From a virus: 29,083 nucleotides of DNA. Each line of letters opens with the position of its first letter. The stretch's first letter is position 1. The stretch lies in the IMG/VR virus record IMGVR_UViG_3300049477_000027, positions 1 to 29,083 of that record. One strand, given 5' to 3'. The notes under the pieces are model-generated. The model had not been told where the DNA came from. It made no database searches and saw only the letters and a list, made by a program, of their open reading frames with translations. Of this stretch, positions 1 to 29,083 are shown one piece after another. The translations under genes and the position numbers were made by a program.

Positions 1-1270
1 CTGTAGATTTTCTCAATCTTAATTTGTAGGTAGTATTTGAATTTACTGTTACTCTAGCCACTATGTCGATAGGTATCCCGCCGTTGTATCCCGGGTCTTG
101 CATTGTTGCGGCCATTAGTTGAGTAGAACTATCAATGATATTATTTGCAGAGTCAGTTATTACGATAGTGCTAAGAACTACGTTACTGTTATTAGAAAGC
201 AAATCAATAAGTCCCTGAAATCTTAATTCCCATTGCTCCCCTGCAACTGTAGGTGCGATTGAAATAGATGCTCCCGAAACATCGGAATAAGTATCTACTG
301 CCGTTACTGTAGTTGTCGAACTGTCCACATACACCGGTGCAGTAGGGAATCTTGTAGCATAAAATAATTGCTTAATGTCCGGGTCCGTTAATTCTGCCGT
401 GAAAGTATCTTGATAAATTCCCGCCGTTGTTGCCCCCACTTTGCGTATCTGCAATTTATAAGTCTTAGCAGAACTTATAGTATCTCTCGCAGTAAGTTGA
501 ACTGGGGAAGTGGAATTAACCGCAGTAGTTTTTCTGTCAATCATTAAAAGTATTGCATTATCAATTAAGTTGTTTGATGAATCTACTATCCGCAAATTGG
601 CATAACTTTGAGTACCGGCTGCGGGTACTGCCATTGTTAAAGAGCCTCTAAAGTTAATCTCAACTTTTTCATTAGCTGCATCGGGAGTAACAGTTACACT
701 TGCTCCCGTAACATCGGTCCAAGTATCGTCTGTCCCAATGCTTGTAGCGGATATTGCGCCTCCCGCTACATATACTGAGTCTTGTGGAACTTTAACAGCG
801 TAAAATTTTTGTGAAGTATCCGGGTCAGTTAATGAGCCCGTATAATTTCCTACCCAAAATTGAAAAGAGGTTCCGTTAGTGCCTTTACGGGCTCTTACTT
901 TATAAGTTTTAGATGCAGAAATAGTATCCCGTGCAACTATTCTCACCGGCCTAGCAAAAGGGTAGAACCCTCCCGGGGCTAACCCTGTAGACAACGCTAT
1001 CGAACTATCAATCACGTTATTACTAGAATCAGTAATTACTATATTTCCATAGAGTTCATCGAAAGATGCAGAGTTGTGGTCTACAGTACCTTGATAAACT
1101 ATTTCCCACTTCTCATTTGTTGCGTCCGGAACTACTGTAAGAGTAGCTCCCGGAACATCGGTCCATGTGTTTGCAGTGGCGAGGGTTAGTGCTGAGATTG
1201 AAACACTATCTAAATATTTTCTAGCTAGTGATTGAACTTTAATCTCGTCGAATATTCCTATACGTTTCAT
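1..1270 (-). CDS. Tail/fibre-associated repeat protein, partial (runs off left edge)
   Basis: The frame starts at ATG 1270-1268 behind the Shine-Dalgarno AGGAG and stays open for 423 codons to the window edge, so the C-terminus is missing. After a 24-residue leader (MKRIGIFDEIKVQSLARKYL...) the protein is built of tandem beta-rich modules at about residues 25-172, 173-319 and 320-423 (third cut off). Each carries recognisable blocks in order: TW/YTDV.GA, then EKWE/EKVE/EQWE, then IVITDSSNN-IDSS, then (V/L).ARDTIS..KTYK, and LTDPD. I do not recognise a named family. The position behind the tail tip genes and the repeated sandwich-like modules suggest a structural tail fibre or a fibre-decorating protein. 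Function is inferred from context only. Confidence 0.8.
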   Translation of the reverse strand, partial: MKRIGIFDEIKVQSLARKYLDSVSISALTLATANTWTDVPGATLTVVPDATNEKWEIVYQGTVDHNSASFDELYGNIVITDSSNNVIDSSIALSTGLAPGGFYPFARPVRIVARDTISASKTYKVRARKGTNGTSFQFWVGNYTGSLTDPDTSQKFYAVKVPQDSVYVAGGAISATSIGTDDTWTDVTGASVTVTPDAANEKVEINFRGSLTMAVPAAGTQSYANLRIVDSSNNLIDNAILLMIDRKTTAVNSTSPVQLTARDTISSAKTYKLQIRKVGATTAGIYQDTFTAELTDPDIKQLFYATRFPTAPVYVDSSTTTVTAVDTYSDVSGASISIAPTVAGEQWELRFQGLIDLLSNNSNVVLSTIVITDSANNIIDSSTQLMAATMQDPGYNGGIPIDIVARVTVNSNTTYKLRLRKST

Positions 1271-1282
1271 AAATAACTCCTA

Positions 1283-2380
1283 TTAAGGTAATGTTTCAGT
1301 CTTGACCCAAATATCTACTGAGCCCGCACTTGATTGATTTAAGTTTGCTCCGACCGATGTTGCAAATAATTTTATTCCCTCTGTCGCTGCGAAGTCTTCC
1401 CCGCCGATAGCTACTGATGAAACATTATAGTTGCCGCCAGATACAGCCGATAGAGCATTGTACGCCGGTAAATACTTACTTTCATTTCCGACAATACCTA
1501 CCGATAAATTGTAATCGGTGATTCCCGTACCTACAAAAGCAGTAGATGTTTTAATCATAATGCCTGTGACCATTCCTCGAATCGGTAAAGTTAGAACTGC
1601 CGCATTGTTTGTAAGTGCTGCCGCTTGAAGTGCTGCGTGGCCTATTGTATATTTAGTCCAAGAGGGTCCTCCGCCTCCGCCAGCCGCCCAAGATAAATTA
1701 CCACTTCCGTCGTTTGTTAAAACTGTACTTGCTGCGCCCTGTGCAGCCGGTAGAGTTAAATCGTGATTTGTGGTTGTCGCCGCCGCTTTTATTCTTACAC
1801 GACCCGATGTAGTACCCCACAAGTACATGAATCCGTCGGCTAAAGAAAATATTTTCTTCTTTGCATTTGTTAAAGAAAACTTAGTATAGAAATTCCAGAT
1901 AGTTCCTTGTGCGGCGTTTGTGTGATTCTCTAATGCCTCGGCCTCGATAGTAGCGGCGTCAATAACTTCCGTTGGAGTGTTGTCGGTAGAACTAGCAGTA
2001 ATTTGTGCGATTACGTCGCCCGTTAAAACTTGACCAGTTATGCGAGCTTTGTAAAGTTTTAAAGCTGCACCTATTGAATCATTTGAAGTTCTTTTTATTG
2101 TGGCCGTTGAACTTATGTTAGGTAAAGTGATTTCTAAAGTTACTTTATTTACAGTTAAATAAAGTACGTCGGCTGTTCCGTCGAAGAAATACATTCTCAA
2201 AATGTTTTGAGATATTTCTAACGAGTCGTCAATCCAATATCCACCCTTTAATAAACCGGCGGGTCTTGCAGCCCCAATGAAACCACTAATTACTATGTCC
2301 CTGAAAGAATTTAACAAGCTCGCAAGTTGCGAGCCGCTAGTTGTTGCAGGATTTATATTTGAAAAAATTGTTCCCGGCAT
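1283..2380 (-). CDS. Tail fibre / receptor-binding-type protein
   Basis: 365 residues. The N-terminal 100 residues (GTIFSNINPATTSGSQLASL...) look like a part that anchors to the tail. The middle has the fibre-type block DLTLPAAQGAASTVLTNDG followed by a glycine run (GGGGG, about residues 236-240), a common linker in phage fibre proteins. The C-terminal 120 residues are Ala/Val/Ser-rich and probably a beta domain, ending in SVDIWVKTETLP. It lies 9 bases after the J-like tip gene and 12 bases before the next repeat protein, so it belongs to the tail-tip operon. Role in adsorption is inferred; no enzymatic motif was seen. Confidence 0.7.
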   Translation of the reverse strand: MPGTIFSNINPATTSGSQLASLLNSFRDIVISGFIGAARPAGLLKGGYWIDDSLEISQNILRMYFFDGTADVLYLTVNKVTLEITLPNISSTATIKRTSNDSIGAALKLYKARITGQVLTGDVIAQITASSTDNTPTEVIDAATIEAEALENHTNAAQGTIWNFYTKFSLTNAKKKIFSLADGFMYLWGTTSGRVRIKAAATTTNHDLTLPAAQGAASTVLTNDGSGNLSWAAGGGGGPSWTKYTIGHAALQAAALTNNAAVLTLPIRGMVTGIMIKTSTAFVGTGITDYNLSVGIVGNESKYLPAYNALSAVSGGNYNVSSVAIGGEDFAATEGIKLFATSVGANLNQSSAGSVDIWVKTETLP

Positions 2381-2389
2381 TTTAACTCC

Positions 2390-5300
2390 CTATATTATGT
2401 TGTCTGCTTGTCTACCATAGCCTACAACCGATGCGTCGAATTGTCTGCTAACAGCATTATTTAAACTATCAAAAAAGGCAATCGTAAACCCTGTCAAGGT
2501 TCGGGAACTGAACTGCCAGTAGTCCCCACTAACCCCGTTGTTTATTGTAATCTGGACGTTAGGACTACTTCCGGGTCCATAAAACGACTCAGGGTAAGTA
2601 ACGGCTAGAGGTCCCGCAGGGGCAGTTAATCCTTGCAAGTTTAAAGTTCTTGTCTGCATTTCTACAAGAACTTGACCGAGTGTGACCCGAGGCGTAACGC
2701 TTGGATTATAACTTGTCAATTTTAATCGGAATCTAAATTGCTGTCCCGTAGCGTCCCCTGCTAAAAACTTACGCCAGTCGGTAGACTCGCCAGAGCCGTC
2801 TCCTATAATCGGAATTGAGTCTAAGGTAATCCAATCTGAAATAGGTGTGAAGTCGGCCATTGCTTGATATTGAAGTTCTACGTCCCAGTCAGAGGAGCCC
2901 GTAGTTGTTAGTGCCGGAACGTCCTCTAAATTATCCCAGTTAATCATTAGGTCGTTGTAGCTAATTGCCTCTGCAATAATCTTAGCTGAGAATCTTGCGG
3001 TAAAAATATTTCCTAAATCTAAAATATCGTCGAAGTAGTAATACCCGTCGGCGTAGAACTGTTCGTTACCTAGCGGTCCGAATACTGATTGGTCTAAAAT
3101 CAATACTGAACTTCCTTTTATAACTCTTTCAACGGAGCCCACTATTCCGGGGAAGTCGTCGATTAGGTCAATGAAATTCATGTTGGGTAAAACTGGAACT
3201 GTGGTCAAAGTTGCGGTTGCATTTTCAGATTGTCTTCCGTCAGATGCAGTAGCTTTAATGAAATATGTTCCAAGTCTCGCCTGAGTAGAGTATAGATTTG
3301 TCGCTGCCGAAACAACATTCACTATTGTTGAAGTCTCCCAAGTGCCGCCGGTCAAAGCAGGGTAGTATCGAATCATATAATTCACTACCGCATTTCCCGA
3401 TATTGTATTCCAACTAAAATGAATTGTTTGATTTGAAATGTCGTTAGAGAATCCCGTAACGTCGGGAACTGCGCCAACGTATTCTATCGGAGTAGCCGAT
3501 ACGGGAGTTACTTCACCTAACACTAATTTCTTACCACTAGAAGAAACCGCAATTACCTTAATGAAGTGTTCGATACCTAAATTGTCGGGGTCTACTTGAT
3601 ATGTGTACTTAGAATCTTTTACTACGTCCTCAAGCACATAACCTTTTCCATTATCAACATAAACTTCAAACGCTTCAAACGTAGAGTTGAGAGGCATATC
3701 CCAATCTATGTCCAAGAAATATTCTATTCCTGTATCTGACAGAACATAGTAATTATCAATGACCTCTAGGCCAATAACTTCGGGAGGAGCTAAGGACTCA
3801 AATCCCGCTATCGGGGAAAGGGCAGGAGCATAGTCTTGAAAAGCCAATATATTTTCGTAGCTGTAAACACCCTCTGCTTTTTCTATTAAAGTTATTGTTG
3901 CAGTAAAATCGGGTGACGGATTTATTGACTTAACTATGCAATCGAAAACAATAGACCCTACTTGTCCGATAACAATTAAGTCCCCTACTGCGGGAAGTGG
4001 ACTTCCATTTAAATTGAAAGTGTCAGCTTGAACTATGGTTAATGTGTTCGTATAGATAATTCCGTTGGCCGCACGATAGGTGTAGCCATAACTTCCCGGA
4101 GCAATTTCTATTTTATCATCTATTACAATTTGATTTCCTGATACAGATTTTACTCTTGCGGGAGTGCCGCCGACTTTCATTACGTCCTGAGTAATTTGAA
4201 CATAATCCCCACGGGTACAAACTAAGTTTTCAAAGTCCACTTGGATAGACATTGTTTCTTGTCGTAGTCGGAACTGAGCCATTACATATCTTGCGTATCG
4301 AGTTGCAAGTTCTAAATTTGTTACTCCGAAAGTAGGTAGGTCTTGAAACTCAGTAGCGTTTAATTCATTATATCCGTCGTCGTAAACTGTAAACTCTTTC
4401 GGTTGCCAGTTACTATTCGGGTCAATGAATTGAACTCTTACTGCGTGAGGCTTTGGAGTATAATTTCTCGAAGACTCAAATCCCCAACTATTTCTAGGAG
4501 TAAAGATTTGAGTGGGTGTGCCTCTGTTAATATCTAATAGAACTCCGTACTTTCCGTCGATAAGATTTGGAGTTGATTGAGCCGCACTTGTAACTTGCTG
4601 TAATAAACTATTTACAGTCGTGTCGAAATCTAAAATAAAATCGCAAGTGTATCGTGGTTGGAAATAGGTTAATCCCGGAGTAGTTGATGTTGGAATTGCA
4701 TCACAATAATTTGCCCACTCCACTAATGACGGAGTGTGAAGTCTTGAATACGCTAAAGGTTTTTTAGCGACCTCCCCTGCAATAATGTCGGCGTAAATCC
4801 ATGCAGGATTTCTTGTGATAGCAGATACCCAACTGACCCCATTATATTTTTTTAATACCGAAGTACAAATAGCTGAGAGGTTATCCATAGCTCCATTTAA
4901 TTGGCCAGAGGCTTTTATTCTTACTTCCATAAACACATGACGCTTATCCGTATTTATGGCTTTCTTATTTACTCTCGATACCATGTCAATCCAAGTTAAG
5001 TCGTCAATCACTTGGGTAGTAGACGACGACGAAGTGGAAAGGCGGGTTACTCTTACTTGATAATTTCCTGCCGACTTAGGTGTGAATTTTACAGTAGCAA
5101 AATGTTGTTGCTGTGTAGCTGCACGAATTTGGAATTTACCGGGAACAATATTTTCCTTTGCTAGTGGCGCAAAAGATTGCTGCTCATAGGTGCTAGGTGC
5201 GGATAGTGTGCTGCCCGATTTAATTTCTTTATAGGTTACTACGGAGAACCCCCCGAATACCGGTTCCTCGAAATAGACTTGCTTTGCTAAGTATCCGGGA

Positions 5301-6706
5301 ATAGTTGGGTGAACCCAATTGCCCGGGGCTATAGACGCAATTCTTCCGATAACTCTTTCATTAGATTTTACTGAGTCTCCAACTTTAGGCTCGGGATATC
5401 TACCTAGTCGGTCGTTAATTCGGTACTCAATAATCATCGAGTTGCCGCCGTTTGGAATACCGATTTCAATTAGCCTGTCGAATCCAAAAATATTCCCCGA
5501 GTTTGTGTAAGTCCAAGTATTCCACGGGCGCACATTAAAAATTTGATAGGGTCCTAAGAATGGTGCGGAGAAGTTCCAACCTAAAGACGGAACCCAACGG
5601 GGGTAGTAAGATAGCATTTGGGTATCGCTAACGCTTTGCGAGCCTCCGCCTCCGACAAATTTTGCTCTGGAGCTTATAGCAGGGTCGTTAAAGGGTTTCC
5701 AATCACTACTGCCAACTTTAGCAATGTCGATTTGCACTTCGATAGTTCTAGTTTGAATGTTGGCGTTTGAATCGAAAGCGTAAAGACCTCTCGGGCAAAC
5801 TAAGTTTACAGTTATTTCTTGTGGAAGTAAGTCATTATTTAAAGGCGCACTTCTCTCCGCTAAGTATTGGTCTACCGGGTCGTTATTATTTTTATTTCCG
5901 TTAATAGCTGTATTTACACTTTCCGAGGATACGTCACCCTTATAGATTACAAATTCTTTATTTAATGGTTGTTCCCAAAGATTTATGCTTTGCTCGCCTG
6001 TGTAATTGGGGTCTACTAATCTCCATGTCACTTGGTCAAAATTATTTATCGGGGTATTTCCGATACGAATATCATCTACAACCATTTCACCTAATCCGAA
6101 ATCATAAATGGCGTATAAGTATTGAGAGTAAATCCCTGTGTTCGGGTCAGGCTCTAATTCTGTGTATGGGTTTGCCGCCACTATCGGGAACATTCTGTGC
6201 CGCCCGTAAACTTTAGGAACTGTTTGAAACTTTCTAACTGAATTGGATTGAGAGGTAATAGAATAAGTTTGTGACTCGTCTAACCTAGTGTCTACCACAC
6301 TTGAGTTTAGAGTTCTAACAGGCATTAAACTACTAACTAAGTACGAAGTTACTAATGCTACACCCGCATTTATTAAACCGGCTGCAAGGAAAGATAAAGA
6401 CGTACCGCCAGTTACCGCAGCACTTATAAATACTGCGACTAAAGTAATTACTTGACCCATTCTCGCACCCTTAATTTTAGGTGCTATAAGAACTGAATCC
6501 GAAGACGAGAGTTTAGTCACTTGCCAAAACTCGCCTTGCACTAAATGTCCGTTTACTGTTGCATTAAATATTTCATGGGATTTACCTACAAGTTTTAATC
6601 CCGCTAAATTTCTATCGGCTGCATCTTGAAGTGACTCTCCGTGAACTATCGGATTTTCTAAATCCCCACTTGTAGTTGAGAGTGAGGCTAATCTAATTCT
6701 AATCAT
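2390..6706 (-). CDS. Tail tip / host-specificity protein (lambda J-like, with I-like N-terminus)
   Basis: 1438 residues, the size expected for the central tip protein that forms the distal end of a lambda-like tail and contacts the receptor. Residues 1-130 resemble the separate lambda assembly protein I: a small soluble domain, then a hydrophobic Ala/Gly-rich stretch (about 84-127). The J-type body follows, opening with SVRKFQTVPKVYGRHRMFP, a typical J entry (..VP..YGR.R). Around residues 950-1160 there are two fibronectin III-like domains (PPEVIGLEV..., then VPDVTGF...IHFSWN). The last 70 residues (VTYPESF...GDYWQFSSRTLTGFTIAFFDS) match the C-terminal beta domain often found on phage tip proteins, similar to H-type lectins. 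ATG 6706 sits behind GGGGGAAGTA and overlaps the upstream gene by 8 bases. Confidence 0.88.
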   Translation of the reverse strand: MIRIRLASLSTTSGDLENPIVHGESLQDAADRNLAGLKLVGKSHEIFNATVNGHLVQGEFWQVTKLSSSDSVLIAPKIKGARMGQVITLVAVFISAAVTGGTSLSFLAAGLINAGVALVTSYLVSSLMPVRTLNSSVVDTRLDESQTYSITSQSNSVRKFQTVPKVYGRHRMFPIVAANPYTELEPDPNTGIYSQYLYAIYDFGLGEMVVDDIRIGNTPINNFDQVTWRLVDPNYTGEQSINLWEQPLNKEFVIYKGDVSSESVNTAINGNKNNNDPVDQYLAERSAPLNNDLLPQEITVNLVCPRGLYAFDSNANIQTRTIEVQIDIAKVGSSDWKPFNDPAISSRAKFVGGGGSQSVSDTQMLSYYPRWVPSLGWNFSAPFLGPYQIFNVRPWNTWTYTNSGNIFGFDRLIEIGIPNGGNSMIIEYRINDRLGRYPEPKVGDSVKSNERVIGRIASIAPGNWVHPTIPGYLAKQVYFEEPVFGGFSVVTYKEIKSGSTLSAPSTYEQQSFAPLAKENIVPGKFQIRAATQQQHFATVKFTPKSAGNYQVRVTRLSTSSSSTTQVIDDLTWIDMVSRVNKKAINTDKRHVFMEVRIKASGQLNGAMDNLSAICTSVLKKYNGVSWVSAITRNPAWIYADIIAGEVAKKPLAYSRLHTPSLVEWANYCDAIPTSTTPGLTYFQPRYTCDFILDFDTTVNSLLQQVTSAAQSTPNLIDGKYGVLLDINRGTPTQIFTPRNSWGFESSRNYTPKPHAVRVQFIDPNSNWQPKEFTVYDDGYNELNATEFQDLPTFGVTNLELATRYARYVMAQFRLRQETMSIQVDFENLVCTRGDYVQITQDVMKVGGTPARVKSVSGNQIVIDDKIEIAPGSYGYTYRAANGIIYTNTLTIVQADTFNLNGSPLPAVGDLIVIGQVGSIVFDCIVKSINPSPDFTATITLIEKAEGVYSYENILAFQDYAPALSPIAGFESLAPPEVIGLEVIDNYYVLSDTGIEYFLDIDWDMPLNSTFEAFEVYVDNGKGYVLEDVVKDSKYTYQVDPDNLGIEHFIKVIAVSSSGKKLVLGEVTPVSATPIEYVGAVPDVTGFSNDISNQTIHFSWNTISGNAVVNYMIRYYPALTGGTWETSTIVNVVSAATNLYSTQARLGTYFIKATASDGRQSENATATLTTVPVLPNMNFIDLIDDFPGIVGSVERVIKGSSVLILDQSVFGPLGNEQFYADGYYYFDDILDLGNIFTARFSAKIIAEAISYNDLMINWDNLEDVPALTTTGSSDWDVELQYQAMADFTPISDWITLDSIPIIGDGSGESTDWRKFLAGDATGQQFRFRLKLTSYNPSVTPRVTLGQVLVEMQTRTLNLQGLTAPAGPLAVTYPESFYGPGSSPNVQITINNGVSGDYWQFSSRTLTGFTIAFFDSLNNAVSRQFDASVVGYGRQADNII

Positions 6707-7890: not shown

Positions 7891-9045
7891 TTAGACCCCT
7901 TTTCTTTGAAGTCCGAAAGACTGTTTTAGAGATTGGTCAAAACTTCCGTTTGCAAATCCCTCTTTAACTTTTCCTAAAATCATTATCTCAATCATTCTAC
8001 CTCCGTCGGCAGAAGTTGATTCAGTAGTTTTAATTTCTGACTCACTCTGATTGATAACATTTATTACAACTCCCGCAGCACCTACTCCTAGTGAGCCGTC
8101 TGCGCCTCGTTTAAGTGGCAGGATAGCCTCCGGACCCGCTTCACCCATTACTCCCATTCCTTGAGAGTGTCCGAATAAAGTTGGAGAATTGACTACCCCA
8201 CCATTCGCAAAAAATTGTACCCCACTATTGAAAGCCCCGCCTTTGGCAAACGGCATGGCTACTTGGCCTACCTTACCTCCACCGCCAAAACTAAAACCGG
8301 CTCCGCCTCCACTCATCATATTCATAAAGCCTTGAAGTATCGGAGCCGTTACCGCCATTCTAACTACTAGCCGAGTTATGTCGGCAAGTAGTGAGTCTAC
8401 GAAAGAGGTAAAATCAAATTTACTTTCTGAAATCATAGATACCATGTTGTCTTCAAAATTTTTGAAAGCGTTTGAAGTAATGTCAGTAACCATAGTGGCC
8501 ACGTTACCTATTTCAAGTAGGCTTTTAGAAACTCCTGCTTTAAATCCTAATAAATAATTGTTGCTGTCCATGAGGTCTAAGTTACCTTGCAATCTTGCAA
8601 GTTCCTCATTCAACGCTGCCGCAGATATTTTACCTGTATTAAATTCTTCAACCAATTTTTGTGCGGAGAATCGGTTAGTTACCTCTTGGAAGTATTCTAA
8701 AGATATTCTCCCATAATTTATTTGGGTTGCTAGATTTTGTATTTCAACTTCTCGGGTACTTTTATTAAAATCTTTTAAAGATTTTGAACCCTCCTGCATA
8801 TCTAAAGTAAATTTCTGTATGCTAAGGTCTAATAATTTTTGAGTGTATTCCTCTACTGATATGTTCCCTTTGTTGAACGCAATATTCAAAGCACCTATTT
8901 GTTTCTCTAAACTCTCGGCCTTGTCTTTCAAAGATTTGTATGCGGCATCTAAAGCCGAGGCTCCGTCTATAGTTGAAGTAACCATGTCCCCAGTATCGGC
9001 TACAGGTACTTGTCTCCCTTTAAACCCCGAGGCCAGAGATTGCAA
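7891..9045 (-). CDS. Tape measure protein, C-terminal part (in -1 frame)
   Basis: 384 residues read from a TTG at 9045 that has no Shine-Dalgarno. The frame is open from just after a stop at 9084-9082, so it overlaps the N-terminal half (ending 9051) by about 30 bases. Predicted content is helical and coiled-coil up to about residue 200, then a hydrophobic part and Gly-rich runs (MMSGGGAGFSFGGGG), and then the tape measure hallmark with FAKGGAFNSG, FANGGVV and GEAGPEAILPLKRG. The last motif is typical of the C-terminus of lambda H-like proteins. It is therefore the second half of a roughly 760-residue tape measure joined by a -1 shift or broken by an indel. It is unlikely to be an independent gene. 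Confidence 0.82.
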   Translation of the reverse strand: MQSLASGFKGRQVPVADTGDMVTSTIDGASALDAAYKSLKDKAESLEKQIGALNIAFNKGNISVEEYTQKLLDLSIQKFTLDMQEGSKSLKDFNKSTREVEIQNLATQINYGRISLEYFQEVTNRFSAQKLVEEFNTGKISAAALNEELARLQGNLDLMDSNNYLLGFKAGVSKSLLEIGNVATMVTDITSNAFKNFEDNMVSMISESKFDFTSFVDSLLADITRLVVRMAVTAPILQGFMNMMSGGGAGFSFGGGGKVGQVAMPFAKGGAFNSGVQFFANGGVVNSPTLFGHSQGMGVMGEAGPEAILPLKRGADGSLGVGAAGVVINVINQSESEIKTTESTSADGGRMIEIMILGKVKEGFANGSFDQSLKQSFGLQRKGV

Positions 9046-9050
9046 TTCAG

Positions 9051-20075: not shown

Positions 20076-21335
20076 CTAGGCTCGGTCTTCAAGAGTTACA
20101 AAACCTGACATTTTGTAATTCCCGTACTGAGTTGTGATAGGAGATTTGAATGGGCAAGAGCCGTCGATGCGTAAGATAAACTTGTACGCAGTTTGGTCTT
20201 TGTCAAACAACAGGTGAGTAGAAACCGCAGACTTCATGCCGCCGCCTTTTAAGATACTGTAGAAGTAGCTTAAGTCAGCAAACACAATGTCACCCTCGTC
20301 GCCAAGAGCTTTAGCTCCGCCGATAAGTGGTAATACTGGGCGACCTAAAAGAAGTGCATACGGAGATTGATTCATCTGAGAGCCCGGAGCTAAGTAGATG
20401 AAGTTTCCGCTGTCGTCTTTCATAGTCATTAACTGTGGCTCAACCGCAGGGTTGATGTACCATACAGAGTTAGCTCTTGAAGACGGAATCATTGCTGCGT
20501 ACATCTTGATTACGTTGCGAGCTACAACTGTATCCGCCGGTTGAGCAGACTCTTTAGCAATCTTAACTCGGAAATCCGAATCAAGAATACCTTTAGGCTT
20601 GCCTACGCCGTTACCATTTAAGATAGCTTCATTTACTTTGTGCATGATTGCCGCAGGAGCAGCACGGCCAATGTAAGACTCAAGACCAACTGTGTCTTCC
20701 AACAATTCGTCAGTAGTCTTAATCAAAGCAGCAAGTTTGTGTAAACGCCAGTTAGCGATACCAAATTTGTGCTTAGAGCCCTCAAGTTGCTGACCCTCTG
20801 CAATCCAATAAGCCTGAACGCCATTTGTCCACGGCTCAGTTTCGTCGATTGGTAACGACATTGTGTTACCCGAAACTGTGAATTGAGTTGTACGAGCCAA
20901 CAAAGATTCATCAGATTGTAATTTTTTAAGAATTTGATTCATCAATGTTTCAGGCACTAAGAAACCGCCGTCTTCACCGATTGATTCGCTTTGTGAATCA
21001 CCCAAAGCATTTAAGCGTTGGTCCATTTTTCCTTGAGCAGCGTTACGAACTGCTTTCAAGAAACCGCCTACAGATTCAAAACCACCTGTTTGACGAGTAG
21101 CCGCTACAACCGGAACTTGTGCTGACGGGTCAGCCGAAGTTTTACGAGTTGAAGTGTTCAACTTAGCTTGCATAGCTTCAACTTTTTCGGTTGCTTCAAT
21201 GCTTGCGGTAAGTTCTTCAAACTCAGCGTTCAAAGCATCTACCTGTTTTAATTGTTCGTCTGAGAATTTAGCCATTCCTTGAAATTGCTTTAATTCTTCT
21301 GCGATTTGTGCGAGTCTTGCTCTCATTTTATCCAT
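20076..21335 (-). CDS. Major capsid protein (HK97 fold)
   Basis: 419 residues, start ATG 21335 behind AGGAGTGTAAA. The N-terminal 70 residues form a predicted coiled coil (ARLAQIAEELKQFQGM, then LNAEFEELTASIEATEKVEAMQAKL), which is the scaffold-like delta domain removed by the prohead protease. The capsid body starts near residue 85 (GGFESVGGFLKAVRNAAQGK), with typical blocks: GEDGGFLVPETLMNQIL, TVSGNTMSLPIDETEP, then KLAALIKTTDELLEDT, then NEAILNGNGVGKPKGIL and ADLSYFYSI. ETEPW..G..AYW.aEG is the usual P-domain entry. It lies directly after the protease gene, as in HK97. A cross-linking Lys/Asn pair was not assigned. Confidence 0.93.
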   Translation of the reverse strand: MDKMRARLAQIAEELKQFQGMAKFSDEQLKQVDALNAEFEELTASIEATEKVEAMQAKLNTSTRKTSADPSAQVPVVAATRQTGGFESVGGFLKAVRNAAQGKMDQRLNALGDSQSESIGEDGGFLVPETLMNQILKKLQSDESLLARTTQFTVSGNTMSLPIDETEPWTNGVQAYWIAEGQQLEGSKHKFGIANWRLHKLAALIKTTDELLEDTVGLESYIGRAAPAAIMHKVNEAILNGNGVGKPKGILDSDFRVKIAKESAQPADTVVARNVIKMYAAMIPSSRANSVWYINPAVEPQLMTMKDDSGNFIYLAPGSQMNQSPYALLLGRPVLPLIGGAKALGDEGDIVFADLSYFYSILKGGGMKSAVSTHLLFDKDQTAYKFILRIDGSCPFKSPITTQYGNYKMSGFVTLEDRA

Positions 21336-21386
21336 TTTACACTCCTAGTGTTTTTTGTGTTATATTTAGTTTCACAAGTCGCTACG

Positions 21387-22100
21387 TTATTTACGAGCTA
21401 AAAAAGTGTGAATCTTATTTTCTAAACTTTTAATCTTTTCTTTTGCCCCGTCAATATCTGTTTTTATAGACGGCATTTTAGCAAGCCATTTGGCTTGGTT
21501 TAACATTGCCGCAGCGACAGGGTAAGAATCTTCCAACTTACGTTGAACGAGCCCAATCTCAATAGCCTCGTCTGCGTCCAACCAAGTTTCGTCCTCAAGC
21601 ATTTTCTTAACTTCTGCTCGGGTGTATTTCTTAATTTTCTTTTGGTAAATATTTAAAAGTTGGTCTTCCACATCAACCAATCGGTCAATAGTAGATTCCA
21701 AGTCCTTGCGGTTTCCGACGGCCATAGTCCACGGCAAGTGAACCATTACAAGTGCGCCGGTTCCAATTTCGATTTCGTCACCCGCCAACATAATTACCGA
21801 TGCGATTGAGGCCGCTAGACCCTCAACTACAACTTTAACTTTGGCCTTGTGTTGTTTTAAACGATTGTAAATTGTGATTCCGTCGAATACGTCTCCGCCC
21901 GGAGAGTTAATTCTAAGTGTAATGTTTTTAACTGAGCTTGAAAGTTTGTTCAATTCATCTGAGAACTGTTTTGCGGAAACTCCGTCGCCCCAAAAGTTTT
22001 CCCCGATAACCCCGTAAAGTACAATCTCGGCCTCGGTTTCACTCTTAGCTCTGATTTTAAATTCTCTTGAACTTTGGAGTTCTACGAAATTTTTGTTCAT
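21387..22100 (-). CDS. ClpP-like prohead protease
   Basis: The start at ATG 22100 (MNKNFVELQ, 237 residues) has GAGG 6 bases upstream; an open TTG at 22136 is less likely. This serine protease of the ClpP/crotonase type trims capsid N-termini during head maturation. Family blocks: RINSPGGDVFDG at 63-74 (oxyanion loop), GLAASIAS at 94-101 with probable nucleophile Ser98, then MVHLPW at 119-124 with His121, and a final acidic stretch LEDETWLDADEAIEIGLV near 168-185. A charged helical end (KEKIKSLENKIHTFLARK) follows. It sits between the large terminase and capsid. Confidence 0.92.
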   Translation of the reverse strand: MNKNFVELQSSREFKIRAKSETEAEIVLYGVIGENFWGDGVSAKQFSDELNKLSSSVKNITLRINSPGGDVFDGITIYNRLKQHKAKVKVVVEGLAASIASVIMLAGDEIEIGTGALVMVHLPWTMAVGNRKDLESTIDRLVDVEDQLLNIYQKKIKKYTRAEVKKMLEDETWLDADEAIEIGLVQRKLEDSYPVAAAMLNQAKWLAKMPSIKTDIDGAKEKIKSLENKIHTFLARK

Positions 22101-22211
22101 TGAAACCTCATTAGGTCTGAGGCTAAAGTATTTCAACTTCCCCAGTCAATTTTAATCTTAAAACGGCCAGTCCAGAAATTACGCCATGCGTCTGTAAAGT
22201 AGTGTAAAAAA

Positions 22212-23897
22212 TTAGAAGTGGCGGAGGCCACGACTATTATATACGGATTCCGAAGTTCCCGATTGCAGCCAAGATGCTAAGGCCATGAGCATTGCAATAA
22301 CCGGGTCAATCTTTAACTTCTCATTATTTTTTCTCGGGTACACATTATTGGCCGCATCTATTTTGGCAACTACGTTACCAAAGGACCAGTTTAATAGGGG
22401 TGAGCCGTTGTAGAAAATCTTTTCTTCCCGTATAAGAACGTCCATTTTTTTCATTGGTTCGGAAAGATTGGCAACTGTCATACGGAACTCGGTAGTTGGA
22501 ACTCGGTCTTTCTGTAAGTCCTGCATTAACTTAACTGTATTCCACGGGTCTAAGCAAACATCTAGGACCCGGAAGTCTTTGCACATTTGCTTCAATTCAT
22601 TTTCGATGTACTCTTGATTTATCGCTTCACCTTTTGTTTTTATTAAATATCCTTTGGCCACACATTCGTCGTACAAACTATTTCTCTTTGTAAGAAGTGA
22701 CGCCTCGGGAACATAGGACTTGTCGAACATATAATAATTCCCGTCCTCAAAAAATATTAGCCCTAATGAGGTTAAATCTATGTGACTAGAAATATCTACG
22801 CCTATCCTAACTTTCTTTCCTTTGAACTGTTCAAGAGTTATCGGCCTAGCACATTTAACAAGTTTATCAACGTCGTAGAAACTTTCCATTTCGGAAAGCC
22901 AAATATTTAAATGCTTAACCTTAAAGTTAGGTAAATCTTGAGGCTGCTCGATTGCCTTTTTAGCTTTTGCCTCAAAGGTAACTGCATCAACTGAATGTCC
23001 GTAACTCGGATTCGCTTTCTTCCAAGTTGATTCCTCAAATACGTCGTCACCCTCGTCGATAGTATAAACGACAGCAAAAAATTGGTCGTCGTCAATCTTG
23101 TCTTCGCAAATTCTTTTTGCGTAAGAGGATTGCGAGTATCCCACCGAGTCCACGCTAAAGCCCGCAGTAGTAATACATAGAGTAAGGGAGTCTTTACGTT
23201 TAGACATACCAGAATAAATTACGTCGAATACTTCTCGGGTCATTGCATGAAGTTCGTCGCATACCGCAAGTACGTCATTCAATCCGTCGAGTCCGTTTTT
23301 GTCCGAAGACAAAGCCCTAATCATGGAGTTAGATTTTTTATGCAATATCGTATGGGCTAAAACTTCTACGCCGGTTTCCCGACGAAAGGCTTTTGACTTC
23401 TGAGCCATTGCCCTTGAGGAATCCAAGACTATTCTTGCTTGGTCTTTTTTTGTGGCCACGTTTGCAATCATGTTTCCGTTAGGATTATCTAACGCTAGAA
23501 AAAATAAACTGCATTGGGACGCCATTGCCGATTTACCGCAGCCCCGAGGAACTTCCACATGGGCAATGCGGAATCTACGGAAGTTCGTAGATTTATTTTT
23601 GAACCCCATTATATTTATCCATACCCACTTTTGCCACGGGAGATAAACTATATTCGGAGTATCCCAGTTACCAATTACATGGGGGAATTTTTGTACTAGG
23701 CGCAAATATCTTTCAGCAAAGTCGGCATCAAAATAAAATGTTGCCTCTTTGTTATCTAAATCTCTTAAATATCTTTTAACTGCCCCGACAACAAATTTGC
23801 AATTAGGTATTCTGCCGCTAATAACATCGTTAGCGTACTCATGTGCGTCGTAGCAGTTAGGGTGAGTGGCGGGATTAAATGGATTATTCAAATTCAC
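22212..23897 (-). CDS. Terminase large subunit
   Basis: 561 residues. This motor pumps DNA into the prohead and cuts it. ATPase part: Walker A PRGCGKS at 117-123, Walker B VLAVCDE at 209-215 with the catalytic Glu at 215, and coupling motif TLCITTAGF at 239-247. Nuclease part (RNase H-like): Asp368 and Asp374 in RIGVDISSHIDLTSLG, Asp450 in DVCLDPWNT, and Asp531 in KIDPVIAML. The layout fits the Terminase_1/YmfN group common in HK97-like phages. The frame begins with GTG 23897; a TTG at 23891 has better spacing from AAAGGTGA, so the exact start is unsettled. It overlaps the small subunit gene by 14 bases. Confidence 0.93.
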   Translation of the reverse strand: MNLNNPFNPATHPNCYDAHEYANDVISGRIPNCKFVVGAVKRYLRDLDNKEATFYFDADFAERYLRLVQKFPHVIGNWDTPNIVYLPWQKWVWINIMGFKNKSTNFRRFRIAHVEVPRGCGKSAMASQCSLFFLALDNPNGNMIANVATKKDQARIVLDSSRAMAQKSKAFRRETGVEVLAHTILHKKSNSMIRALSSDKNGLDGLNDVLAVCDELHAMTREVFDVIYSGMSKRKDSLTLCITTAGFSVDSVGYSQSSYAKRICEDKIDDDQFFAVVYTIDEGDDVFEESTWKKANPSYGHSVDAVTFEAKAKKAIEQPQDLPNFKVKHLNIWLSEMESFYDVDKLVKCARPITLEQFKGKKVRIGVDISSHIDLTSLGLIFFEDGNYYMFDKSYVPEASLLTKRNSLYDECVAKGYLIKTKGEAINQEYIENELKQMCKDFRVLDVCLDPWNTVKLMQDLQKDRVPTTEFRMTVANLSEPMKKMDVLIREEKIFYNGSPLLNWSFGNVVAKIDAANNVYPRKNNEKLKIDPVIAMLMALASWLQSGTSESVYNSRGLRHF

Positions 23898-24237
23898 CTT
23901 TCCCGTCGTCAGAGTCCTCTTTATCTTTTTTAAGAATTAGTCCTAACATTTTTGAATACACCGCTATTTGGCCGATTACTTTAGTCCTCTGTTCAATCTC
24001 CGGTCGCATCTTTACTTGGAACCCGTTACGGCCAATAGACTCGTAAGTGTGGCCAAGCATTTCAAGGACATTGCGGAGATTTTCATACTCAACGTGCAAG
24101 TCACAAAGTATTTGAAGTTGATTTAAATGCCCGGGTTTAAAATTTTCTCTCGATGCAATGTCGTCAATGTAGCCATTCCATTTAGAAATAAATGTCGGGT
24201 GTCTACTCGGAGCAGGATATTTATTTTTTGGCTTCAT
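23884..24237 (-). CDS. Terminase small subunit (P27-like)
   Basis: 117 residues. Small terminases recognise phage DNA and recruit the large subunit. The helix-rich part (NFKPGHLNQLQILCDLHVEYENLRNVL...) and the late VIGQIAVYSKMLGLILKKD fit the P27 family. The conserved phrase there is ...L..L....w..y..a...i...G......g......P.......a......l..lGl. The acidic end (KEDSDDGKGEFE) is also usual. ATG 24237 overlaps the helicase stop (ATGA), so both are translated together. A helix-turn-helix was not located. Confidence 0.78.
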   Translation of the reverse strand: MKPKNKYPAPSRHPTFISKWNGYIDDIASRENFKPGHLNQLQILCDLHVEYENLRNVLEMLGHTYESIGRNGFQVKMRPEIEQRTKVIGQIAVYSKMLGLILKKDKEDSDDGKGEFE

Positions 24238-25787
24238 AATAAATCCTCTGCGGGAATTTTCGCTATAGATTTTATTTTAAAGTCCCCGTAAATAGAGTCT
24301 TTCGACGGGTAACATTCAAAGGCCGGTTTCCCGTCAATGGTTCTGAAAGTTCTTAGGAAATACATTGCCGAAGTGAAGTCTCCCGGAAACTCTCCGTCTT
24401 TAATTTTTATATTACGACTCTTAATCGCAATTTGCTGTACTTCCGAGAACCACATTTCGCCTCTTTCCAACATATCAGAGTGCATCTTAACAGCTTTAGA
24501 GTGGCTTGGCAAATCGGTCAATACTTTGATTGTAGCTTTTTGCCAATGGAACATCGACGAGTGCGCTAACTCCCAAAATTTTCTTCCGATGTATTCTCCT
24601 GAACGGAATAACTTTTCATTGTTTCCGTGCTTTAAAATCCAACGGCCAATTTGAGCAACATACTTAATATCGAACTCGGGACTATCATCGAACTCAATCT
24701 TTTCAGAAAATTGTTGGATTTCATCTTTAGTTAAAACTGAATCTAATCTTTTTCCAGACAGAGTAATGGGTGCAAATTTCCTTGCGTCGAAAGAAATATA
24801 ATTATCCCGGGGCTTATTGTTGGAGATAACTATTGAACAATGTATTTTTGTAGAACGGGTTGTGTTCTTAAATTTTTCTTCAATAGGTACTGTTCCGTTA
24901 GGAATCTCTTTCATTATATTTTCTTCGTCGTAAGTATATTTTAATTCGTCGAAGTGAATGTAGGTACAGTTAGCCAACTGAGAATTAAAACTTCCGACCA
25001 ATGTACTTTTCTTTCCGTCTACTGAATTATGATTTCCATGAAGCGCACGGATAACCGACTTCATTCTGTTCTTACCTACTGCCGGGTCCCCGCAAAGTAC
25101 GAGGTAGACTTGTGCCCGTGAAGTTATTGATTGGTAAATCCAATGCAAGAAAAACTTTCTGTCCATTTCATCAGTAACTTGATTAAAAAGAATTTCAATT
25201 TCCCTCGGGAGTTCGTCGGGAACTTCACCCTCGTAGCTTAACCATGCGGGCGGGATATAGGCGTTGATATGGTCTACTTCCTCCCGTGAGGTTAATTTCT
25301 TTTTGTATAAACCCTTTTGTCCTCGGGGATTATAGTCTCTGATTAGCGGCATTGCCGCTTTGTCAGGTTCTTTTATGTCCATTAAACTTATGTAGTGGTG
25401 TGCGGGAATCTGCGAAACCCGGTCGTCGTCGTTCACTAAAAAATAAGTTGGTTCTTTATCAGTAGTGAAGTCCATATCTTTAGCGAGTGTGAAATCCTGT
25501 AAGGACTCAAGTTGTTCCTCCACAATTTGACTTGTGTTAGGCATTAACCCTTTATGTTCGCACATTGCCTTAGCTAAATTTTCTACTTCCCCGTTTGTAA
25601 GTATCTTGTGCATATTTTGATTTAAGAATATTTTTGCAGTAAATATTTTCTTAGTTAAAACTGTTCCCGACATTGTGTTGTCGGGGAATTTTATGCACTT
25701 AGTTTTACCGGGTAGGAACCCCACCACTTTTAAATTGATTTGTTTTAAGATTTCTTCAAAATCTTTGAAGTCCGAATCCGAATACAT
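24234..25787 (-). CDS. SF3-type helicase / primase-helicase C-terminal-like protein
   Basis: 517 residues, start ATG 25787 behind GAGGGG. The ATPase core lies at about 225-345. Walker A is CGDPAVGKN at 232-240, with Asn where most relatives have Ser/Thr. Walker B is YIHFDEL at 276-282. Motif C is SIVISNNKPRDN at 318-329, and Arg336 in DARKF is a candidate arginine finger. This set is that of superfamily 3 helicases, as in DUF5906-type phage proteins. The N-terminal 200 residues are not a recognisable primase-polymerase, so priming may come from elsewhere. It is the only replication gene in the window and is fused by overlap to the terminase genes. Confidence 0.82.
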   Translation of the reverse strand: MYSDSDFKDFEEILKQINLKVVGFLPGKTKCIKFPDNTMSGTVLTKKIFTAKIFLNQNMHKILTNGEVENLAKAMCEHKGLMPNTSQIVEEQLESLQDFTLAKDMDFTTDKEPTYFLVNDDDRVSQIPAHHYISLMDIKEPDKAAMPLIRDYNPRGQKGLYKKKLTSREEVDHINAYIPPAWLSYEGEVPDELPREIEILFNQVTDEMDRKFFLHWIYQSITSRAQVYLVLCGDPAVGKNRMKSVIRALHGNHNSVDGKKSTLVGSFNSQLANCTYIHFDELKYTYDEENIMKEIPNGTVPIEEKFKNTTRSTKIHCSIVISNNKPRDNYISFDARKFAPITLSGKRLDSVLTKDEIQQFSEKIEFDDSPEFDIKYVAQIGRWILKHGNNEKLFRSGEYIGRKFWELAHSSMFHWQKATIKVLTDLPSHSKAVKMHSDMLERGEMWFSEVQQIAIKSRNIKIKDGEFPGDFTSAMYFLRTFRTIDGKPAFECYPSKDSIYGDFKIKSIAKIPAEDLL

Positions 25788-25868
25788 TGAAACCCCTCAT
25801 ATTAGTCTTTGCCGACGAATAGTAAATATAACTTGAATTTATAAAAGTAAAGAACTAAAACTATTTTC

Positions 25869-25949: not shown

Positions 25950-26031
25950 TTTTTTATTTGTGTTTACTTATAGTTAGATTTTTGTACTTAGGTCAAAACT
26001 TGATGCGTAAAGATATTACGCCTATTGACAA

Positions 26032-26057
26032 TGCGCCTTACGAGATAGTAAGGCGCA
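26032..26057 (-). terminator. Hairpin after AcrVA2-like gene
   Basis: A perfect 10-bp stem (TGCGCCTTAC at 26032-26041, loop of 6, complement at 26048-26057) begins 6 bases after the stop codon of the upstream gene. The T tract on the minus strand is poor (TTGTCAAT), so it may be a factor-dependent end or an mRNA stabiliser. Read on the plus strand it is followed by an AT-rich tail with T5. Confidence 0.45.
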
Positions 26058-26063
26058 ATAAAT

Positions 26064-26909
26064 TTAATTTTTGTTTGTAGAATAATTTACAGTAGTTGAT
26101 GAAATATAGACCAATTTTCTGTCGCACCACATTTTACCACATGGTTGCCAACGGAAATGTCCTTTGCGAGTTCCCATTTCAACAGAATATTCTCGCCCGT
26201 GAAAATCCCACCCGAGAGAATAAATATTAAATAGTTCCGATTCGTTTTTTGGTTTTCCGATAAATTTTTCTCTGAAAACTTTTTGATTATAGATTTGCGG
26301 TTTGAGTCGCATAATATCCGCACTCGGACTGTTCATGTAAAGAATTAAATTTAGAGACAGACGTAGGATTCTCAATTTAACTTCGTCCTCAATAGGGTTT
26401 CCGAGATTTTCCAAAGAAGTATTTAAAATATCTTGCATTGTAGAGCCTTTTTTATATCTCGCACCGATATAAATTCCCGCCATAATTCCTTTTTCGTCGG
26501 GGTGTCCAACCAAATACAGAGTAATCTTATGTTCGTCTTCCGAAGAATTTGAATGATAGCCCAACATAGTTTTCGGCGGGAGTATCGTCATTACCATTTC
26601 TTTGTATTGATATTGGCTGTCACATAAAAATCCGTCTTTAAAAATAAAGTTGAAAGCCTTTATTCCGTCAAGTCCCCAATTCCCCACTTCGGAAAAATCT
26701 ACAGTATCTAAGGCGTCGGCTAAAGATTCCGAAACAACGTAGGAAACTTTATCATTATTTATTGCTACCGACGCCACGCTATGTAAAGTAGTTAATCCGT
26801 CACGCAATAATATATTTTTTGTTTCTTGTATCTGCCTCGCTAGCGGCAGCAATAGTGCAGGGTTTCTTACATAGTCGTTTACTAATGTTGTCGATGATAC
26901 TTTTCTCAT
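26064..26909 (-). CDS. AcrVA2-like phage protein (early gene)
   Basis: The start is placed at ATG 26909 (MRKVSSTTLVNDY, 281 residues), which overlaps the upstream TGA as ATGA and has AGGAG upstream; an upstream TTG at 26975 would give a Lys/Arg-rich extension inside the previous gene. Blocks that resemble a family annotated as AcrVA2-like: NLILYMNSPSADI (many relatives read l.YL....ad) and the end GTRKGHFRWQPCGKMWCDRKLVYI (relatives: gHwR.q..G......k..wI.P). AcrVA2 of Moraxella prophages counters Cas12a, but relatives are widespread in phages whose targets are unknown. The gene is last in the early cluster. The match is from memory, so treat the function as open. Confidence 0.6.
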   Translation of the reverse strand: MRKVSSTTLVNDYVRNPALLLPLARQIQETKNILLRDGLTTLHSVASVAINNDKVSYVVSESLADALDTVDFSEVGNWGLDGIKAFNFIFKDGFLCDSQYQYKEMVMTILPPKTMLGYHSNSSEDEHKITLYLVGHPDEKGIMAGIYIGARYKKGSTMQDILNTSLENLGNPIEDEVKLRILRLSLNLILYMNSPSADIMRLKPQIYNQKVFREKFIGKPKNESELFNIYSLGWDFHGREYSVEMGTRKGHFRWQPCGKMWCDRKLVYISSTTVNYSTNKN

Positions 26910-27298
26910 GTTCCTAATTCTCCTAAGAATGTTAATTTTCTTCTTTCTAAATTTAATTTTCTTTGCACTTGCCAATCGGGTGAGCCGTGGGAAATTAAAG
27001 TTTTACTTTTTAAGGATACGGCTTTTCGGATTATGAAATCTGCTACTTCGGGGTCAATAGTATTTAGATTTGCCACAAATACTTTTGAAAAAACATTTCC
27101 GTTCAATGTTGCAACATTGTACCCGTGATAAAACCTAAATATTGTTCCGAGGTATTCAAACCTAATAACTCCACTTTGTATCTTTCGGTTTTTTATCCTA
27201 GTTATTAGTCTTCGGCAATAATTGTTATCAACAAAAAATTCAAAAAAATCTCTACTACACCCTACGACTAAAACTTTATACACTTTCTGTTCGGTCAT
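26906..27298 (-). CDS. Hypothetical early protein ending in LGT
   Basis: 130 residues. ATG 27298 overlaps the stop of the upstream gene as ATGA. The N-terminal part (KVYKVLVVGCSRDFFEFFVDN) begins with a beta strand and could be a small alpha/beta fold. The middle FEYLGTIFRFYHGYNVATLNG and VFVANLNTIDPEVADFIIRKA alternate strands and helices. The C-terminal 30 residues are basic (VQRKLNLERRKLTF) and end in GELGT. I do not recognise a family. Its final codons hold the ribosome site and start of the AcrVA2-like gene, so expression is coupled. Confidence 0.7.
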   Translation of the reverse strand: MTEQKVYKVLVVGCSRDFFEFFVDNNYCRRLITRIKNRKIQSGVIRFEYLGTIFRFYHGYNVATLNGNVFSKVFVANLNTIDPEVADFIIRKAVSLKSKTLISHGSPDWQVQRKLNLERRKLTFLGELGT

Positions 27299-27552
27299 GT
27301 GCCCAACTCATTAAATATTTGTAATCTAGGGTCTACGTCGTTAATTAACATTGTGGAAAACGCCTCGTAATTCTCCCTCATTTTTTTACTAGGCAGATTA
27401 AGACCTTTCTCCAACCTAGTTGCTAAATTGTGACAATGGTTCAGATAGCGATTGTTGCTAGAGTTATCCGCATACTTGTCCCTGCGTATAAGTAGTCGGA
27501 TATGGTTGGCAACTCTCACCCTATGTTCTGGAGTGTCCTCTTTATACCCCAT
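27295..27552 (-). CDS. Hypothetical small basic early protein ending in LGT
   Basis: 85 residues, basic and probably helical (HRVRVANHIRLLIRRDKYADN, then RYLNHCHNLATRLEKGL). The last ten residues RLQIFNELGT match seven of ten at the end of the next gene upstream (RLAIFDKLGT). ATG 27552 lies 3 bases after that gene's stop; the only ribosome-like bases are TTGGGA 10 bases upstream, so translation may depend on coupling. No known domain was recognised. A DNA- or RNA-binding role would fit the charge but is a guess. Confidence 0.68.
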   Translation of the reverse strand: MGYKEDTPEHRVRVANHIRLLIRRDKYADNSSNNRYLNHCHNLATRLEKGLNLPSKKMRENYEAFSTMLINDVDPRLQIFNELGT

Positions 27553-27555
27553 AAA

Positions 27556-27804
27556 TTATGTTCCCAACTTATCGAAAATTGCTAGTCGGCCTTTTACTCT
27601 ATTCAAAGTGCTTAAGGTTATCGGGGAGAGTTTAAGTTTGGGGTTATTGGTTAAAGCCTCATAGAAGAATTGCACCTTTCCCTCGTCGTCACAATCAACG
27701 TGAGCAAAGGATATTTCCTCCGCCGCCTTATTTAAACTCTCAACGGAGTCAAACTCCAAAAGCCGGATTCTATTAGAAAGTAAAATTGAGTTAATTATTT
27801 TCAT
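27556..27804 (-). CDS. Hypothetical small early protein ending in LGT
   Basis: The start at ATG 27804 (MKIINSILLSNRIR) has AGGAGG 7 bases upstream and is preferred to the in-frame ATG at 27825, which would include that site. 82 residues. Content: a beta strand-like opening, an acidic helix (FDSVESLNKAAEEI), then VDCDDEGKVQFFYEALTNNP, then a basic end KGRLAIFDKLGT. I do not recognise the family. The terminal motif is shared with the next two genes. Confidence 0.68.
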   Translation of the reverse strand: MKIINSILLSNRIRLLEFDSVESLNKAAEEISFAHVDCDDEGKVQFFYEALTNNPKLKLSPITLSTLNRVKGRLAIFDKLGT

Positions 27805-27870
27805 GCCCGAACCTCCTGTAATCATTTTACTATGTCTTCTCGGATAACCAGAATAAATACTAATTGTTTC

Positions 27871-28317: not shown

Positions 28318-28325
28318 TTATGCAA

Positions 28326-28355
28326 ATTTTAGGAAATTTATTGAAAAGTATTCAA
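28326..28355 (-). promoter_or_regulatory. Sigma70-type promoter of early operon
   Basis: On the minus strand TTGAAT (28355-28350), an 18-base spacer and TAAAAT (28331-28326) form a promoter (4/6 and 5/6 to consensus). Only 8 bases separate the -10 box from ATG 28317, so the transcript would start at or within a few bases of the start codon. The 14-bp element at 28385-28398 lies about 30 bases upstream of the -35. Confidence 0.65.
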
Positions 28356-28377
28356 TTTGAAAATACCTAGTGATTAC

Positions 28378-28401
28378 AGACACTTATGCCTGAGAGTGTC
28401 T
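28378..28401 (-). repeat. 14-bp element copy 1 inside a hairpin
   Basis: The element CACTCTCAGGCATA lies on the minus strand at 28398-28385. It is framed by a 7-bp inverted repeat (AGACACT at 28378-28384 and AGTGTCT at 28395-28401). Other copies are on the plus strand at 28567-28580 and 28668-28681. Confidence 0.75.
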
Positions 28402-28549
28402 TAACACCCCGTAATCATTGAGGAATTTGGCCTAAGTGCAAAAAACACCACTATTTAATACTTTATATAAATATGAATATAAACTAATGCGAAAATTTTT
28501 TTATAGATATATTTCCGAAAACGTGGGGTCGTTCCAAATTCATTTTAGG

Positions 28550-28580
28550 ATTTCAAGCACTTAGCTCACTCTCAGGCATA
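28550..28580 (+). repeat. Compound repeat: 15-bp element copy a with 14-bp element copy 2
   Basis: ATTTCAAGCACTTAG (28550-28564) is followed directly by CTCACTCTCAGGCATA. The block 28551-28580 matches 28652-28681 at 28 of 30 positions, 101 bases away. Confidence 0.8.
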
Positions 28581-28612
28581 TTGTCGAAAAATGGAGTTCT
28601 ATTACATCAATG

Positions 28613-28627
28613 ATTTCAACTACTTAC
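28613..28627 (+). repeat. 15-bp element copy b
   Basis: ATTTCAACTACTTAC, one mismatch from copies c and d at the last base. It is not followed by the 14-bp element. Confidence 0.75.
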
Positions 28628-28633
28628 AACGAA

Positions 28634-28681
28634 ATGTTCAAAAACGAGTAATTTCAACTACTTAGCTCACTCTCAGGCATA
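28634..28681 (+). repeat. Compound repeat: ATGTTCAAAA, 15-bp element copy c and 14-bp element copy 3
   Basis: ATGTTCAAAA (28634-28643), then ATTTCAACTACTTAG (28651-28665), then CTCACTCTCAGGCATA. The first two parts recur at 28926-28958 with nearly the same spacing (17 and 18 bases). Confidence 0.8.
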
Positions 28682-28843
28682 AACCTAAAAATTTCCTCAT
28701 TTTGCTAAATAGGGGAAAGTTTATCTGGTAAATATTTTTGTGTTTAAGGGGCTCGATATAAAATCCAAATTTCCCGGAATTTTTTGAAATTTGTTTCCGC
28801 CGGACGTTCTGAAAGGGTGGACTGAAAACCGGTCGGAGTGAAT

Positions 28844-28884
28844 AATTATGCGCATAATTTCATTTTAGGTGCATAATTATTCAC
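28844..28884. promoter_or_regulatory. Perfect 16-bp palindrome with additional half-site (operator-like)
   Basis: AATTATGCGCATAATT at 28844-28859 is a perfect palindrome. A third half-site GCATAATT occurs at 28871-28878. Seen with wider limits, 28838-28851 and 28871-28884 are 14-bp perfect inverted arms. Dimeric regulators or initiators often bind such sites. No promoter adjacent to it was clear. Confidence 0.65.
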
Positions 28885-28925
28885 AACTTATTTGGCCAAA
28901 TCGTTTAGGGCAGAGTTAAGCCGAT

Positions 28926-28958
28926 ATGTTCAAAACCAGCGTGATTTCAACTACTTAG
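28926..28958 (+). repeat. Repeat: ATGTTCAAAA with 15-bp element copy d
   Basis: ATGTTCAAAA at 28926-28935 and ATTTCAACTACTTAG at 28944-28958, as in the compound repeat at 28634-28681 but without the 14-bp element following. A degenerate TCAGGCAT occurs further on at 29059-29066. Confidence 0.75.
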
Positions 28959-29083
28959 GACAGTTTTGACGAAAGTTGGGCACTCTTTTTCAGGCCGTAC
29001 TTTCGCATTTTTTGAGGGGCTTATTATTCCCCAGTAATATCAGGTACTTAACAGGGTGTCAGGCATGACTCAATACCTCATGG

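Follow-up and report, generated by a model that had tools for sequence, protein, structure and literature searches.

The 29,083-bp stretch of DNA analyzed here (the window), which is the entire IMG/VR record IMGVR_UViG_3300049477_000027, contains no GATC, and this word is one of at least 24 that have been purged from it. The best explanation, to which we give a probability of about 0.9, is restriction-site avoidance in a phage whose hosts have many Type II systems, probably as a union over strains. By the mechanism proposed, the genome would have been stripped of the sites of many host restriction endonucleases, mostly through synonymous or otherwise tolerated substitutions, GATC being the most frequent of the stripped words, and an incoming unmethylated genome would stay uncut for want of a site. 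Cleavage by nucleases would be the selective agent, and several hosts would contribute to the set of words. Restriction-site avoidance itself is already known, and the point of interest is its breadth here.

Gene content of the record

The window derives from a dsDNA siphovirus, of whose genome it is a fragment; its HK97-type capsid, portal, large terminase subunit and tail genes place it with the dsDNA phages. Essentially all of its genes lie on the minus strand. The terminases are a small subunit (Terminase_4, PF05119; 23884-24237) and a large subunit (phrog_9, E 1e-137; 22212-23897), and they are accompanied by a ClpP-like prohead protease (PF00574, E 4e-31; 21387-22136), a major capsid protein of HK97 type (phrog_10, E 3e-57; 20076-21335), a portal protein (phrog_12, E 5e-103; 17832-19142), a collagen-like protein of tail-fibre type (16518-17828) and head-tail connectors, among them a head-tail adaptor (phrog_442; 13815-14435). 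The tail genes encode a protein of the minor tail protein family (phrog_290; 11004-12200), the assembly chaperones G and GT (phrog_8233/3817 and sequence; 10147-10895), a tape measure protein (7891-10172) and a J-like central tail fibre or tail-tip protein of 1438 aa (phrog_31, E 8e-91; 2390-6706). A structural-type protein with a weak match to phrog_20179 runs off the record end (2-1270), a DUF5906/primase-helicase-like protein lies at 24234-25787 (PF19263 and phrog_1156), and five small ORFs between 26064 and 28317 gave no family match. No integrase was seen among the window genes scanned, the record being a fragment; complete site elimination is commonest in non-temperate phages.

Several local features were also observed. 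Just upstream of its stop codon, chaperone G has the in-frame heptamer G GGA AAC, and reading in the -1 frame runs on without a stop into GT, an arrangement predicted to be a classical programmed frameshift. The tape measure gene consists of two ORFs (9051-10172 and 7891-9045) with a frame change between them at 9045-9053, where no canonical slippery site was seen; a relative, L121, has both halves in a single frame, and the split is either a sequencing indel or a true interruption. At 26906-27825, on the minus strand, three successive small ORFs each terminate in ...LGT, at or close to the point where the following gene begins, and the codons of these endings may double as ribosome-binding sites. 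The non-coding end (28318-29083) carries direct repeats; between 28548 and 29067 it holds the 16-nt repeat TGATTTCAACTACTTA in four copies at least 78% alike, 31-nt relatives of it and a 20-nt inverted repeat, and it is a possible origin or control region.

Loss of GATC and of many other words

An exact string search counted GATC 0 times in 29,083 bp, so that the total absence reported in an earlier, sequence-only reading is borne out. The expectation was 80 (sd 8.3) in dinucleotide shuffles, 63.5 by a maximal-order Markov estimate, and again 63.5, with a minimum of 46 in 500, in shuffles with all proteins and the pooled codon usage held constant. Its figure of about a hundred expected copies was therefore a little high (64-80), while its base composition of near 40% GC agrees with the 40.5% measured. 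Zero against 64-80 lies below an observed-to-expected ratio of 0.1, the site-elimination threshold taken after Rusinov (CB <0.1) and applied with our own nulls in place of the exact CB formula.

The word is missing in all frames and in the non-coding end, and it is dodged in codon contexts of all three frames. Before a codon starting with C, aspartate is encoded 62 times by GAC and never by GAT, whereas before a codon starting with A the two are used 65 and 74 times. After G, isoleucine is ATT (74) or ATA (31) and never ATC, although ATC is used 51 times after A. After a codon ending in GA, serine is AGT in 12 of 12 cases, though TCN makes up most serines. The loss is thus specific to the word and is explained neither by composition nor by coding. 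The neighboring words GATG and CATC, described earlier as abundant, occur in the coding strand about half as often as expected from synonymous shuffles (GATG 49 vs. 99, CATC 27 vs. 53), because GGATG and CCATC have been eliminated in their own right.

A scan for depletion (≤0.15, Bonferroni 0.01) covered 3,064 words of 4-6 bp, simple degenerate palindromes included. Sixty passed and were reduced to 24 non-overlapping words: GATC, ACCGT, CGCG, CCTTC, GMATKC, CATCC, GGCCC, CACTG, GTYRAC, CGCTC, WCTAGW, CCATC, ATTAAT, CCAGG, AWCGWT, GCMKGC, ACACG, CTCTTC, AAGGAG, CCWWGG, AGTACT, YACGTR, GWGCWC and TTCGAA. This number counts words and is a lower bound, not a count of enzymes, and GMATKC (GAATTC, GCATGC, GAATGC) may represent several enzymes. 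Five simulated order-2 genomes gave no eliminated word, and when 30 genes were shuffled synonymously 100 times, each of the 24 (CCAGG being taken as CCWGG) stayed above its observed count. Several of the words are asymmetric and 5-6 bp long. We take GATC to be the site of DpnII, CGCG of FnuDII, CCWGG of EcoRII, GTYRAC of HincII, GGATG of FokI, CCATC of BccI, CCTTC of HpyAV, CTCTTC of EarI, CCWWGG of StyI, GWGCWC of HgiAI and GAANNNNTTC of XmnI, and some others to be sites of ordinary 6-cutters; for ACCGT, GAGCG, AAGGAG and ACACG we know of no matching enzyme. Against synonymous shuffles, the coding strand at 1283-28317 has a strong excess of the strings CGGG, TCGG and CCGA (z 9-10), perhaps as a side product of the avoided words.

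The sequence-only reading had attributed the loss of GATC to a restriction system cutting there, or to nucleases and mismatch systems acting at that site. Restriction is still the best reading of this loss, which is only one symptom; since at least 24 words are purged, a single GATC system or a GATC mismatch-repair nuclease is insufficient. Mismatch repair of the MutH kind was rejected, as it would touch only GATC.

Contiguous 6-bp palindromes fall well below expectation as a class (z -12.7), at a window ratio of 0.21, and 44 of the 56 that contain G or C are absent where 2 absences are expected. These figures could mean that palindromes or hairpins are avoided in general, or that the loss is a by-product of codon usage or composition, but we consider either scarcely credible. 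Palindromes made up of A and T only, such as AAATTT (52 vs. 44 expected) and TTTAAA, stand at, near or above expectation, CCCGGG, ACCGGT, TGGCCA and TTGCAA are at, above or close to it, most 4-bp palindromes are near normal, and synonymous shuffles fail to reproduce the eliminations. Gapped palindromes (N1-N12) show no depletion as a class (z -2.6 to +2.8), GAANNNNTTC and GCANNNNNTGC being among the few with zero count. Sister words are spared, as seen from the observed and expected counts: ACSGT 0/44 against ACWGT 59/51, CCWGG 0/19 against CCSGG 44/58, CASTG 1/30 against CAWTG 81/58, GTYRAC 0/24 against GTMKAC 25/21, and CGCG 0/41 against GCGC 32/40. CATG, ACGT, AGCT, GANTC, CCCGGG, ACCGGT and TGGCCA are spared also. 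The spared sisters and the undepleted gapped palindromes therefore exclude a general dislike of palindromes.

So many classical cloning sites are missing that the sequence might at first seem designed, and a chimera, a restriction-treated library or an engineered sequence might be suspected. Such an artefact has hardly any chance of being correct: digestion would hit only one or two words, the depletion includes non-classical words and is even along the window (GC-containing 6-bp palindromes at 0.14-0.25 of expectation per 13-kb slice tested), and about nine of the eliminations recur in a natural contig of another IMG/VR record, L018, described below.

Relatives, hosts and methyltransferases

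Relatives were gathered by capsid, portal and terminase, and some 36 were compared. The closest, L018 (IMGVR_UViG_3300026919_000001), has a capsid 75% identical to that of the window, core proteins 60-76% identical and a similar gene order; scans of viral contigs gave no nearer relative. Among GenBank phages, a near-identity search found no match at the DNA level, and the terminase matches listed were below 40% identity. Some terminase genes of the relatives have features of their own. The large subunit gene of L018 (2107-4788) carries an apparent intein at the Walker A motif (junction GNGK / HNS), the large subunit sequence of L020 (23-2035) starts inside an apparent intein, and between the small and large subunit genes of L003 an ORF at 392-1129 resembles, by eye, an HNH-type homing endonuclease.

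About nine losses are common to L018 and the window: ACSGT (ACCGT), CGCG, CCTTC, GMATKC, GTYRAC, ATTAAT, CCWGG and TTCGAA, with WCTAGW strongly depleted. Unlike the window, L018 keeps CATCC, CCATC, CACTG, GGCCC, CCWWGG and GWGCWC, as well as 22 GATC where 47 are expected, with GATCC (0/25) and RGATCY (0/15) eliminated. At an equal length of 13 kb, L018 has 6 eliminated words and window slices 6-7, and the palindrome ratios are 0.60 and 0.14-0.25, respectively. In the other relatives, pooled, ACCGT (1.11), CCTTC (0.99), CCWGG (1.06) and GATC (0.80) are near their expectation. From these shared and unshared losses, the window and L018 probably have a common host background, and the full loss of GATC is specific to the branch of the window. 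The strong pressure through the lineage proposed from the sequence is consequently seen at its tip only, as the closest relative keeps its 22 GATC and the others about 0.8 of expectation. Elimination of a GATC subset, with GATC itself kept, was also observed for RGATCY in L062, L063, L058, L023 and L031, and for GATCC in L076 and L018.

The gain of avoidance could be followed in gene alignments with 23 related loci, which hold 646 GATC sites when one present in several relatives is counted once per relative. The window keeps none of them, whereas it keeps 4-21% of other 4-bp palindromes, except CGCG. At these sites it most commonly has GATT (66), followed by GACC (55), AATC (29) and many others. 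The prominence of GATT, which like TGCG is over-represented in the coding strand against synonymous shuffles, would suit a mutational origin, in which host cytosine methylation and deamination turn GATC into GATT or AATC and CGCG into TGCG or CGCA. We hold this to be very improbable, because GACC arises from GATC by a T-to-C change, which deamination does not cause, the loss is total, and ATTAAT, which has no cytosine, is lost too. As a sole cause, deamination was rejected by the substitution spectrum, which is not confined to GATT and AATC.

Neither N6/N4 nor C5 methyltransferases (PF01555, PF00145) were found in the window, and scans of its proteins with Pfam and PHROG recognized no methyltransferase or known anti-restriction gene. 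Within the window there is thus no gene by which the phage would be classed as protected by its own DNA methyltransferase; since the record is a fragment, such a gene or another anti-restriction gene may lie outside it. A Dam-like methyltransferase (PF02086) was found in none of 40 relatives, and a C5 methyltransferase (PF00145) in 6 of 41 records, all of them relatives (L027, L029, L037, L060, L071 and L091). In L027, which has the strongest match, GATC stands at 107 against 91 expected. This suggests, short of proof, two anti-restriction strategies in the phage group, methyltransferase and site loss.

Clues to the host were sought in several ways. No tRNA was present in the window or in 13 related loci. 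A scan of genome contigs gave a single match, L020, which is a phage contig of 16 kb in a MAG of Ca. Dependentiae, and a search of Ca. Dependentiae found this MAG only, 1 of 101 genomes. As its sampled contigs are compositionally mixed (26 to 51% GC), the link to Ca. Dependentiae was set aside.

Could one host account for the whole set? Microcystis genomes have about 16 R-M systems each, the genus median being about 2 (PMC8262939), and 21 putative restriction enzymes are listed for M. aeruginosa PCC 7806 (PMC2442094). Genera this rich exist, and the core of about nine words in common with L018 suggests a stable host background, so that one host, or one clonal host lineage, with at least 20 Type II systems is conceivable. 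We nevertheless regard it as unlikely: the published means for genera lie below 24, many words distinguish L018 from the window, as would fit varying strain repertoires, and the Microcystis and Planktothrix phages compared do not have the same word set. Bloom cyanobacteria, considered for their wealth of R-M systems, may still be among the hosts, the cyanophages compared being without the word set of the window. Because 24 or more words exceed the approximately 16 R-M systems per Microcystis genome (PMC8262939), restriction-site avoidance probably reflects a union across many strains.

How far restriction can bend coding sequence is seen from the simultaneous loss of two dozen specificities, which makes an uncultured phage a probe of the enzymes of its hosts. 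It is possible, and we put it forward tentatively, that the restriction specificities of the host population as a whole can be read from the word list, among them ACSGT, GAGCG, AAGGAG and ACACG, which have no well-known enzyme, and that the phage is among the broadest natural cases of elimination, asymmetric sites thought to be unavoided included. Word lists could point to restriction specificities still undescribed. The comparison with L018, in which GATCC and RGATCY are lost where the window has lost all GATC, shows turnover of the set within a lineage, and such lists could therefore help to assign hosts to uncultured phages.

Comparison with known phages

The same word test was applied to 12 phages, up to 29 kb each. 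With 24 words and a palindrome ratio of 0.21 the window leads this set, a comparison that gives no fair ranking, as the window was picked for its absence of GATC. Like the window, coliphage T7 is depleted in GATC (4/101) and CCWGG (2/60) in its first 29 kb, but it has 9 eliminated words and a ratio of 0.40. Anabaena phage A-4L is also without GATC (0/70) and has lost 13 words; these form another set (GGNCC, RCATGY, SAGCTS), and the ratio is 0.45. Staphylococcus phage K shares the absence of GATC (0/62 in the first 29 kb), but has only 3 eliminated words and a ratio of 0.76. For the H. pylori phage KHP30 the values were 11 words and 0.57, for phi29 10 and 0.58, for lambda 2 and 0.53, and for the Microcystis phage Ma-LMM01 0 and 0.85.

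Site avoidance is widespread among viruses; in roughly one viral genome in ten elimination is complete or nearly so, mainly at orthodox Type II sites (PMC6286503), and no avoidance was found for Type IIG sites (Rusinov et al. 2018; PMC6286503). Two points weigh against our explanation: some of the eliminated words have no matching enzyme known to us, and several are asymmetric, whereas the avoidance described in that work is mostly of orthodox Type II sites. The window resembles the dsDNA phages of Rusinov et al. (2018) in the complete loss of Type II sites, GATC included, and in having no recognized methyltransferase, and it differs from them in that about two dozen words, several of them asymmetric and 5-6 bp long, have been lost at once.
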